Shown: positions 33,377-36,272 of the stretch, piece by piece
How positions within the stretch are numbered: the first letter of the stretch is position 1
Layout of the letters: every line of letters starts with the position of its first letter
NCBI GenBank assembly: GCA_946186215.1
Contig: CAMHMM010000002.1
Location: 1 to 37,869 of the forward strand
Length of the DNA stretch: 37,869 nucleotides
Origin: an uncultured Ruminococcus sp.
Lineage (GTDB): Bacteria; Bacillota; Clostridia; Oscillospirales; Ruminococcaceae
Direction of reading: 5' to 3'
Notes under the pieces: generated by a model
What the model saw: the letters and a program-made list of their open reading frames with translations, nothing else
Told to the model about the DNA's origin: nothing
The model's database searches: none
Program-made: the position numbers and the translations under genes

Positions 33377-34045
33377 TTATCTCTTCTTTGTGCGCACGCT
33401 TATGTAGTCGGAGCCCTCAACGGTGGTCCAGCTTCCTGCGATATATGCCTTTACGCAGAACTTGTAGCGGGTGTCGGGCTTGAGGCCTGTTACCTTGTAG
33501 GTGTGCTTGGTGGTCTCCTTGAGCTTCTTGAGCTTGCCCTTGCCGTCTACCTGATATACGGCATACTTCTTTGCAGCAGAGATATTGGTCCAGTCGAGGG
33601 TGATGCTCTTTGCCTCGCAGGCAGCCGTAACAACGGGCTTCATAACGGTGAGCATACCGTCGGTCTTTGCGGAAACATCAGCTACCTGACCGTCTATAAC
33701 GGGACGGATCATGAACTTGTAGGTAGTGCCCATTTTAAGGCCGGGGATGGAGATGGATGTGGACTTGGTGGTCTTGTACTTGGTATATTCGCCGTTTTTA
33801 TAGATATAGACTACATAGCCCTCTGCATTGGGAACGGTGTCCCACTTGAGAGTCATCTTGGTGCCGTTGGAGCCCGACTGAACCTTGAAATCATTGAGAG
33901 CAATGGTAAGAAAATCCTCATCGGTATAGCCTACATCGCCGTCATTCATATAGTACTCAGCTTCGAGTGCATAAACTGAAGGGGATGCCAGCATCCCGAC
34001 TGCAAGAAGTGCGGCCATAACTGCTGCTTTTCTGTTGACTGCCAT
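33377..34045 (-). CDS. Secreted protein with two fibronectin type III-like domains
   Basis: Signal peptide MAVNRKAAVMAALLAVGMLASPSVYALE. FN3-like 'MTLKWDTVPNAEGYVVYIYKNGEYTKYKTTKSTSISIPGLKMGTTYKFMIRPVI' and 'ITLDWTNISAAKKYAVYQVDGKGKLKKLKETTKHTYKVTGLKPDTRYKFCVKAY'. Confidence 0.8.
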   Translation of the reverse strand: MAVNRKAAVMAALLAVGMLASPSVYALEAEYYMNDGDVGYTDEDFLTIALNDFKVQSGSNGTKMTLKWDTVPNAEGYVVYIYKNGEYTKYKTTKSTSISIPGLKMGTTYKFMIRPVIDGQVADVSAKTDGMLTVMKPVVTAACEAKSITLDWTNISAAKKYAVYQVDGKGKLKKLKETTKHTYKVTGLKPDTRYKFCVKAYIAGSWTTVEGSDYISVRTKKR

Positions 34046-34100: not shown

Positions 34101-34129
34101 ATTATAATATATACGCCTGTAAATGTCAA
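34101..34129 (-). promoter_or_regulatory. Perfect-consensus sigma-A promoter TTGACA-N17-TATAAT for the FN3 gene
   Basis: Minus strand: TTGACA (34129-34124), 17-nt spacer, TATAAT (34106-34101). Confidence 0.85.
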
Positions 34130-34146
34130 GTTATTTAGAAAAATTG

Positions 34147-34629
34147 GCGGCGAAACGCCGCTGTTACCCGCGCTCTCATTTGAACTGTGACGCTCATTTG
34201 CAGCCCGAAACTTTAAAATGTTAAACGGTAACAGTAAGTTTGTCCGTTACCCCCTCCGCCTCGCTGCGCTCGGCACCTCCCCTTTCAGGGGCGGCAAGGC
34301 AGGCAGAGCCTGCACCCACCAGTACTTTCATTTGTCATTAAACGAACTTTTGATACTCGGAACTTTTAGTTAAAGCGCAGTTTCAGGCGTGACCACACTA
34401 ATAATGACTTGCCTCCCTTGAAAAGGGAGGGGGACCGTCGCCTTCAGGCGGTGGTGGTGGGATTCATTAACGAACCGAGCCCCTGATGAGCGTTCCCTTT
34501 CAAAATAGCATACGGGCAGCTGTCGGCCTTGCCGACTAAGTGTAAAATAATAATTGGCATAAAAGTTCCGGGCTGCAAATAAGCGTTACCTTTCAAATAA
34601 AAGTGCGGGTAACTGCAGGCTTTGCCTGC
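34147..34629. repeat. Composite inverted-repeat (MITE/REP-like) element, no ORF
   Basis: Arms 34163-34214 and 34562-34613 are inverted 52-mers, 44/52 identical. Each is followed 1 nt later by a 6-bp-stem/3-nt-loop hairpin (34147-34161; 34615-34629). Internal third half-copy with hairpin 34522-34536. Inner inverted pair ~34251-34298 / 34409-34462. Confidence 0.75.
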
Positions 34630-34632
34630 CGC

Positions 34633-34661
34633 TTGACATTTTCCGCGGTGTCTGCTATAAT
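34633..34661 (+). promoter_or_regulatory. Perfect-consensus sigma-A promoter TTGACA-N17-TATAAT for the ComM-like gene
   Basis: TTGACA 34633-34638, 17-nt spacer, TATAAT 34656-34661. Confidence 0.85.
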
Positions 34662-34745: not shown

Positions 34746-36272
34746 ATGTTCGCAAAAATCAACAGTCTTGGACTTTTCGGGCTCAATGCCTTTGTGGTCG
34801 ATGTGGAGACGGAGATCAGCAGAGGTACGCCCTGCTTTGATATAGTAGGCCTTGCGGATGTTTCCGTAAAGGAGAGCCGCGACAGGATAAAAGCGGCCTT
34901 CCGCAGCTTCGGCGGCCAGTTTCCCGTTGCCCGCGTGGTGGTCAATCTTGCGCCCGCGGATACCCGCAAGGCGGGCAGTATGTTCGACCTTGCCATTCTT
35001 GTAGCTGTGCTCAGAGCACAGGGACTGCTCAATGCCGATCTTTCGGAAACGGCCTTTATCGGTGAGGTCTCCCTCAACGGCGATATAAGGGCAGTGTCAG
35101 GCGTGCTGCCGATGGTGCTGTGCGCACAGAAGGCGGGGATAACCGAGGTTTTCGTTCCGGCGGACAATGCCTATGAAGCAAGCGTCGCAGAGGGCGTTAA
35201 GGTCTACGGCGCGGCAAATGTAAAGGATATCCTCGATCATTTCAACGGCACGCGGCCTATCGCTCCCGCACCGCCATATGTGCCAAAGGCCGCGGAATAT
35301 TTCGAGCATATAGACTATGCGGAGGTAAAAGGGCAGCGCCTTGCAAAAAAAGCCCTTGAATATGCGGCAGCAGGCGGCCATAACCTGCTCATGATAGGCA
35401 CCCCGGGCAGCGGCAAATCAATGCTTGCAAAGCGGCTGCCTACCATACTCCCGCAGATGTCCTTCCGCGAATCCATCGAGACTACCAATGTTCATTCCGT
35501 AAGCGGGCTTGTGGATAAGGATAATCCGCTGGTGGTAAAGCGCCCCTTCTATTCGCCTCACCATATAATCTCAGGCGCAGGGCTCTGCGGCGGCGGCACA
35601 ACTCCCCGCCCGGGACAGATAAGCCTTGCCCATAACGGCGTGCTGTTTCTCGATGAACTGCCCGAATTTGCAAGGCCGACACTCGAAATGCTGCGCCAGC
35701 CCTTAGAGGACAGACAGGTGACCATATCAAGAGCATCGGGCTCGGTGACCTATCCCTGTTCATTTATGCTCATCGCGGCGATGAATCCCTGCCCCTGCGG
35801 ATATATGGGGCACCCCACAAAGAAATGCACCTGCTCCCGCCAGAAGGCAAAGGAGTATATCAACCGCATAAGCGGACCGCTCCTCGACCGCTTCGATATC
35901 CATGTAGAGGTAGGCCCTGTGGATTTCAAGGCGCTTTCCTCCACAGCAAAGGAAGAAAGCAGCGCGGCGATCAGGGAAAGAGTGCAGGCCGCACGGGAAA
36001 TACAGCAGCGGCGCTTCGCAGGCACGGATATCACCTGCAACGCCCGCATAACAGCGGATCTTTTCCATGAGGTGTGCCCCGTCACAAAAGAAGGCACCGA
36101 GCTTCTCGAGCAGGTATTTGAGAAAATGGGGCTTTCCGCCCGCGCATACGACAGGATCGTAAAGGTAGCCCGCACGATCGCGGATACGGAAAATTCGGAA
36201 ATGATAGATAAGAAGCATATTGCTCAGGCGGTACAATTCCGCACACTTGACAGAAAATACTGGAATGACTGA
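34746..36272 (+). CDS. YifB/ComM-family Mg-chelatase-like AAA ATPase
   Basis: KINSLGLFGLNAFVVDVETEISRGTPCFDIVGLADVSVKESRDRIKAAF, Walker A GTPGSGKSMLAKRLPTILP, 'GVLFLDELPEF', 'AAMNPCPCGYMGHPTKKCTCS'. Confidence 0.95.
   Translation: MFAKINSLGLFGLNAFVVDVETEISRGTPCFDIVGLADVSVKESRDRIKAAFRSFGGQFPVARVVVNLAPADTRKAGSMFDLAILVAVLRAQGLLNADLSETAFIGEVSLNGDIRAVSGVLPMVLCAQKAGITEVFVPADNAYEASVAEGVKVYGAANVKDILDHFNGTRPIAPAPPYVPKAAEYFEHIDYAEVKGQRLAKKALEYAAAGGHNLLMIGTPGSGKSMLAKRLPTILPQMSFRESIETTNVHSVSGLVDKDNPLVVKRPFYSPHHIISGAGLCGGGTTPRPGQISLAHNGVLFLDELPEFARPTLEMLRQPLEDRQVTISRASGSVTYPCSFMLIAAMNPCPCGYMGHPTKKCTCSRQKAKEYINRISGPLLDRFDIHVEVGPVDFKALSSTAKEESSAAIRERVQAAREIQQRRFAGTDITCNARITADLFHEVCPVTKEGTELLEQVFEKMGLSARAYDRIVKVARTIADTENSEMIDKKHIAQAVQFRTLDRKYWND

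Follow-up and report, generated by a model that had tools for sequence, protein, structure and literature searches.

The region described here occupies positions 34147-34629 of the window, by which we mean the whole 37,869-nt stretch of contig CAMHMM010000002.1 (assembly GCA_946186215.1) from an uncultured Ruminococcus sp., and lies between two divergent genes, one for a fibronectin type III-domain protein and the other for a YifB/ComM-type Mg-chelatase-like AAA protein (Table 1). It is built of four alpha units of about 69 nt (ordered minus, minus, plus, plus), two two-hairpin beta units of about 50 nt and spacers, and it holds no ORF of note, as the first-pass annotation had already stated. 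That annotation viewed the interval as a composite element bounded by 52-bp inverted arms. The gapless match was reproduced exactly, the reverse complement of 34163-34214 being identical to 34562-34613 at 44 of 52 positions; extended to 34147-34215 and 34561-34629, the arms agree at 53 of 69, a repeat search places them at 34146-34214 and 34562-34630 (69 nt, 78% complementary), and BLASTN within the host genome recovers the pair with E = 1e-9. The inner GC-rich inverted pair that it noted is also real and corresponds to the two beta modules, and what it had overlooked are two more copies of the arm, here alpha 2 and alpha 3, and a perfect sigma70 promoter just beyond each end of the interval. 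Folded as single-stranded DNA, the interval is far more stable than its own dinucleotide shuffles (z = -7.9). A known structured RNA was ruled out, there being no Rfam match: the covariance models gave nothing in the window at the gathering score, and chance-level hits only at E up to 10. The sequence at the island centre is related to material upstream of several other beta copies.

Table 1. Features in and around the interval, in window coordinates
Feature	Position	Strand	Details
Fibronectin type III-domain protein gene, flanking	33377..34045	-	PF00041, 3.6e-16
Promoter of fn3-protein gene	34101..34129	-	-35 TTGACA 34129-34124, 17-nt spacer, -10 TATAAT 34106-34101
Alpha 1 (left arm)	34147..34215	-	body 34171-34215; R1 match 77 bits
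Alpha 1 cassette t1	34147-34170	-	CGGGTAACA + GCGGCG-TTT-CGCCGC
Beta, subtype CTTGCCGCCCCTGAAAGGGGAGGTGCCGAGCGCAGCGAGGCGGAGGGGGT	34249..34298	-	abuts t2 hairpin of alpha 2
Alpha 2, cassette t2	34299..34368	-	hairpin GCAGGC-TCT-GCCTGC at 34299-34313
Island centre	34369..34407		polarity changes from - to + here
Beta, subtype CTTGCCTCCCTTGAAAAGGGAGGGGGACCGTCGCCTTCAGGCGGTGGTGGT	34408..34458	+	two stable hairpins, z = -3.3
Alpha 3	34468..34536	+	R1 model match 74.9 bits
Alpha 3 cassette t3	34513-34536	+	CGGGCAGCT + GTCGGC-CTT-GCCGAC
AT-rich spacer/leader between tandem alphas	34537..34560	+	TAAGTGTAAAATAAT...GGCA
Alpha 4 (right arm)	34561..34629	+	R1 match 87 bits
Alpha 4 cassette	34606-34629	+	CGGGTAACT + GCAGGC-TTT-GCCTGC
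yifB promoter	34633..34661	+	-35 TTGACA 34633-34638, 17-nt spacer, -10 TATAAT 34656-34661
YifB/ComM-type Mg-chelatase-like AAA protein gene, flanking	34746..36272	+	PF01078 8e-92, PF13541, PF13335

The multiple copies anticipated by the first reading are abundant. When the interval was searched by BLASTN in the host genome (G000, a draft of 365 contigs that is 82% complete), 145 matches appeared, spread over dozens of contigs and almost without exception partial and with the modules in varied order. Model R1 matched all 150 of the candidates scored, so that the genome has at least 150 alpha units. The alpha unit was defined from an alignment of 46 diverse copies and a covariance model; 103 units were found in 228 kb of sequence, and nearly all copies sit in gaps between called genes, in regions that were largely chosen for containing matches and with gene calls that are simple ORF picks. 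Each unit has a single orientation and begins with a body of about 45 nt (AAAGTTCCGAGCCNCAAATGAGCGTTNCC...CAAATGAGAGTA); CGGG comes next, then a linker of 5 nt and a hairpin whose six-pair stem closes a 3-base loop. The linker and the 15-nt hairpin together form an exchangeable cassette of about 20 nt. Most copies carry one of four hairpin types, namely t1 (GCGGCG-TTT-CGCCGC), t2 (GCAGGC-TCT-GCCTGC), t3 (GTCGGC-CTT-GCCGAC) and t4 (GCGGGC-TTT-GCCCGC), and the linkers are CGGGTAACA, CGGGAGGGT, CGGGYAGCT and CGGGTAACT. The hairpin is maintained by compensatory changes: 94% of its cells are paired, five of the six pairs have changes on both sides, and covariation is 0.53 against 0.145 in shuffled alignments, a signal that is abolished by sliding the pairing. 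A putative stem within the body (GTTACC/GGTAAC) was rejected, since no covariation was found for it.

Alpha units, alone or with other modules, make up islands, of which 76 were found in 307 kb of the host genome, with one to nine modules each. All 61 multi-module islands have every minus module to the left of every plus module, with hairpins pointing outward, whereas random strands yielded 28 outward-type islands on average and 40 at most in 2000 draws. At its outer end an island invariably has the hairpin of an alpha unit or of a cassette, which may belong to any of the four types, and there is no distinct second end module. A MITE, here a non-autonomous DNA transposon that is bounded by terminal inverted repeats of 52 bp and mobilised by a DDE transposase, would agree with the gapless inverted arms at both ends of the interval and with a multi-copy family, and bacterial MITEs (reviewed in PMC10969869) are likewise small, non-coding and repeated, with inverted repeats like those at the ends of this particular island. 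However, the facing arms of islands are no more alike than random units (identity of 0.639, against 0.658 for random unit pairs), and therefore they are not the paired terminal repeats of one element; both arms of the window find better partners at other loci, the left one with a best match of 0.91 and its facing arm in 12th place, the right one with a best match of 0.97 and its facing arm in 8th. Moreover, half or more of the islands are one-sided or tandem, most are one-sided or asymmetric, and there is no defined unit length: the best counterpart of the full interval elsewhere reaches 71% identity, and the matches are for the most part single modules in varied order, which means that the interval of about 480 bp is not itself a repeated unit. 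The arm comparison leads us to reject a MITE with terminal repeats, a reading that we hold to be extremely improbable, and the supposed 52-bp terminal arms of a composite element turn out to be two independent copies of a directional unit of about 69 nt.

Hairpin type says almost nothing about the alpha body to which it is joined. The two members of a unit pair have the same type in 25, 24, 29 and 28% of cases in successive bins of body identity up to 90%, which equals chance, and sharing climbs to 48% above 90%. After removal of same-locus duplicates, the association of each alignment column with hairpin type stays at background over the body and CGGG, bar a few columns (the strongest exception being column -13, V = 0.38), and leaps to V values of 0.54-0.95 from the base after CGGG onward, which places the switch point directly after the invariant CGGG. 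The right arm of the window illustrates this point, its body being about 98% identical to that of a unit on a different contig whose hairpin is t1, not t2. Cassettes are also chained in tandem, one to three in a row (25 doublets and two triplets), and only 1 of 29 adjacent pairs is of the same type, against 7.4 expected. From this indirect evidence we infer that cassettes are added at CGGG and that palindromes are lost by slippage between CGGG repeats. A bolder and fairly unlikely possibility is that what moves is the CGGG-linker-hairpin cassette of about 24 nt. It would be a minimal single-strand hairpin element, added after CGGG by a protein outside the Y1/RAYT group, with unlike tips swapped or stacked on existing bodies; directional addition at hairpin ends would then make the outward polarity of islands a by-product.

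In about half of the cases, neighbouring units on the same strand share 75-100% identity, compared with a median of 65% for random pairs, and the rest are as unlike as random pairs; the near-identical neighbours appear to be tandem copies, pointing to growth by duplication. Contig C241 has a 93-bp tandem array, and the leader found between alpha 3 and alpha 4 also occurs in 93-bp tandem arrays at other sites. Nearly identical arrays of about 93 bp, each repeat an alpha with its AT-rich leader, are present at L059:851-1189 and L058:1098-1351; these probably arose by recent duplication and could serve as variable-number typing loci. Tandem duplication explains the same-strand runs but not the lack of hairpin-to-hairpin junctions in two-sided islands; in the only places where two islands meet hairpin to hairpin, a gamma element (described below) stands between them. 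Several contigs of the host assembly start in or beside alpha/beta islands (C138:1, C204:56, C20:1, C299:54 and C120:2), which suggests that the repeats cause assembly breaks and that copy number is probably underestimated.

The gain of an island was seen between trkH and trkA on contig C9. A one-sided island of about 510 bp fills the 513-nt gap between these genes in the host genome, with a t3 hairpin directly after the trkH stop codon (L061:3601) and the trkA ATG at L061:4115, whereas in three sister species the two genes lie closer together, with 8 nt (G018), 9 nt (G014) and about 50 nt (G011) between them; the island is therefore a lineage-specific gain. Its left border is exact, at the stop codon TAG; where the island ends on the right could not be fixed, nor could a target duplication be located. 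This is the only clean empty site found, of the kind by which the first-pass annotation had proposed that a mobile family could be recognised. At the yifB locus the upstream gene order is kept in no sister species, and at two further loci compared for empty sites, a clpB-like gene and L022, the neighbour genes differ. The trkH-trkA case bears on passive growth, in which slippage, unequal recombination and gene conversion would have enlarged old intergenic seeds with no transposition at all. The many near-identical tandem neighbours and the C241 array agree with such a process, but about half of the adjacent units resemble each other no more than random pairs do, chained cassettes are unlike, and two relatives with 8-9 nt between trkH and trkA have no room for a seed, making passive growth alone quite unlikely.

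Islands often stop at functional borders of genes. In the window, the outer hairpins of alpha 1 and alpha 4 end 17 nt and 3 nt, respectively, before the -35 boxes of the two divergent promoters. Among hairpin ends that face gene starts, 24 of 50 have a near-consensus promoter (at most two mismatches) within 45 nt, compared with 11% of controls, which were matched positions in upstream regions without repeats, and of the 27 hairpin ends facing the 3' end of a gene, about 11 are no more than 12 nt from the stop codon. Orientation is less uniform: of the one-sided islands that lie between genes of like orientation, 13 face the gene start and 2 do not in the host genome, but the split is 6 to 6 in the other species sampled. 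A promoter-directed orientation was thus not upheld as a general rule, and we read the islands as filling dispensable space up to functional borders rather than as proven promoter targeting; the promoter preference may be a by-product. The island in the window most likely has no essential role; it separates two divergent promoters. The units might instead be selected cis-elements, neither neutral nor selfish, acting as insulators at promoter borders or as hairpins at stop codons that tune translation or mRNA ends. Such roles would be in keeping with hairpin ends that abut -35 boxes and stop codons, with the strict polarity, and with a report, cited in a passage of PMC12306157, that E. coli REPs at most 15 nt from a stop codon reduce translation. 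They accord poorly with a copy number that ranges from none detected to at least 150 among species of one genus, with a trkH-trkA operon that works without the island in three sister species, with mixed orientation to genes outside the host genome, and with an alpha body that is poorly conserved between species; we regard selection for such functions as decidedly improbable.

The repeat family is lineage-restricted. Any R1 match was found in 20 of 398 genomes of the bacterial family, with at least 12 units in G014, 10 in G009 and 4 in G015, and up to at least 12 in members of another genus (G127, G322 and G400), whose named records are uncultured Clostridia/Oscillospiraceae MAGs. The layout is retained in other species (GTTACCGAG... 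body, CGG... linker, hairpin and a tandem period of about 93-95), and the body sequence differs. Spread by plasmids, phages or viruses was rejected, because the plasmids and phages searched gave only short chance-level pieces and the exact t3 cassette was absent from the viral contigs, as it was from the other genome contigs searched. In about 100 kb of G014 (L069-L074), blocks like AACAAGCCGCAAATGCTTGAATATA and GAGGCTTGGAGATCGTCTATACATCGAGG occur 10-13 times; these are possibly coding repeats.

The closest known relatives in anatomy are the REP/BIME repeats (PMC3733652; RAYT-linked REPs, PMC2817692). Like them, alpha is a short extragenic palindrome that carries an unpaired tag on its 5' side and is present in hundreds of copies and in clusters, with stem subtypes kept by compensatory change and some hairpins near stop codons. 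Unlike them, it joins a body of about 45 nt to the hairpin, its four types swap after the invariant CGGG, its islands are mainly tandem and strictly outward, and no Y1/RAYT gene accompanies it. A conserved GTAG/CGTC tag was sought among the linkers and is absent, GTAG occurring in part of t3 only; GTAG repeats have been reported from Proteobacteria, Cyanobacteria, Chloroflexi and the PVC group, with Firmicutes unmentioned (PMC3733652). The REPINs (PMC3116915) are similarly extragenic and hairpin-forming, with tandem clusters of near-identical units, but a REPIN is an inverted REP doublet that replicates as one unit with matched ends, and the opposite arms of alpha islands are unrelated beyond the family level. 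What remains of the earlier designation as a MITE/REP-type family is a non-coding, multi-copy, lineage-restricted repeat family of REP-like anatomy; the MITE is not supported, and the GTAG tag and the RAYT transposase, hallmarks of the classical REP group, are absent.

IS200/IS605-kind Y1 enzymes produce a sharp joint after a fixed tetranucleotide. The joint after CGGG would therefore suit a classical REP or REPIN mobilised by a RAYT, a Y1 HUH transposase, the gene for which has been lost or is missing from the drafts. The unpaired tag, the clusters and the covarying stem subtypes of a high-copy extragenic palindrome, features described for REP families (PMC3733652), would suit it too. Nevertheless, the Y1_Tnp domain (PF01797) was found neither in the host genome, at 82% completeness, nor in eight other alpha-bearing genomes that are each at least 93% complete (G014, G009, G015, G002, G007, G127, G322 and G400), although the same search detected it in control genomes and in some relatives, and the 1.9-3.4 kb around the relatives' Y1 genes contain no alpha or gamma match. 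RAYT/IS200-type mobilisation was rejected on these two grounds. The lack of a conserved GTAG tag, and units of about 69 nt that are mostly tandem or outward instead of inverted doublets making one hairpin, also tell against a lost or missing RAYT, which we consider unlikely. No transposase or other mobilising protein was identified for alpha.

In their modular construction, the islands resemble the pneumococcal BOX elements (boxA-boxB-boxC, PMC3049150), which are also structured, non-coding repeats of Firmicutes found near genes, with a variable number of internal modules and no transposase of their own. BOX elements nonetheless have other sequences, fixed A and C ends around the B modules and related terminal repeats that they share with an IS, whereas alpha islands, variable in their number of modules, lack both a fixed outer pair and 5' and 3' end modules that are constant and distinct, and their hairpin tips are exchangeable. 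The other modules are of two kinds. Beta, with 42 copies listed, has two subtypes that share the first hairpin (CCTCCCCTGAAAGGGGAGG) and differ in the second, a further sign of mix-and-match modules. Gamma is a separate non-coding repeat of about 350 nt, seen at L063:9655-10010, L049 8328-8671, L017 1582-1928 and other places; besides the short cross-match of the query, it has 26 matches in the host genome, mostly 80-90% identical, and it carries a long conserved hairpin (GGGGATGAAACACCAGAGGGACGG / CCGTCCCTCTTCGTTTCTCCCC), usually begins directly after an outward alpha hairpin, has no Rfam match and has a homologue of about 70% in G018.

Taken together, we favour, with a probability of roughly 0.72, the reading that the interval represents a single island belonging to a modular family of extragenic repeats, non-coding, high in copy number and similar to REP/BIME and to BOX, which has spread by a trans-acting activity together with duplication and slippage. 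A putative trans-acting protein would recognise the hairpin end as single-stranded DNA and would deposit units or cassettes beside CGGG or at gene borders; islands would then enlarge by tandem duplication, and cassettes could be lost when slippage occurs between the CGGG repeats on either side of a palindrome, leaving shuffled pairs of body and hairpin. Purifying selection would presumably halt this growth at promoters and coding ends, with the islands filling the dispensable gap.

The suggestion that the family is possibly undescribed in this lineage stands, given that no account of such repeats was found in the literature searched, which does not by itself prove that none exists, and the repeats are apparently an unusual, undescribed cousin of the bacterial REP and BOX repeats. 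If our reading is right, a genus of anaerobic Firmicutes has REP-like repeats without RAYTs, with a combinatorial architecture of body and hairpin and a strict polarity rule. The spread of REP-like repeats without an evident transposase is thereby made testable, now that the CGGG joint, the four types of hairpin and the species rich in alpha have been defined. In addition to being a likely cause of assembly breaks and potential markers for strain typing, the islands, placed as they are at promoters and stop codons, could alter gene expression.
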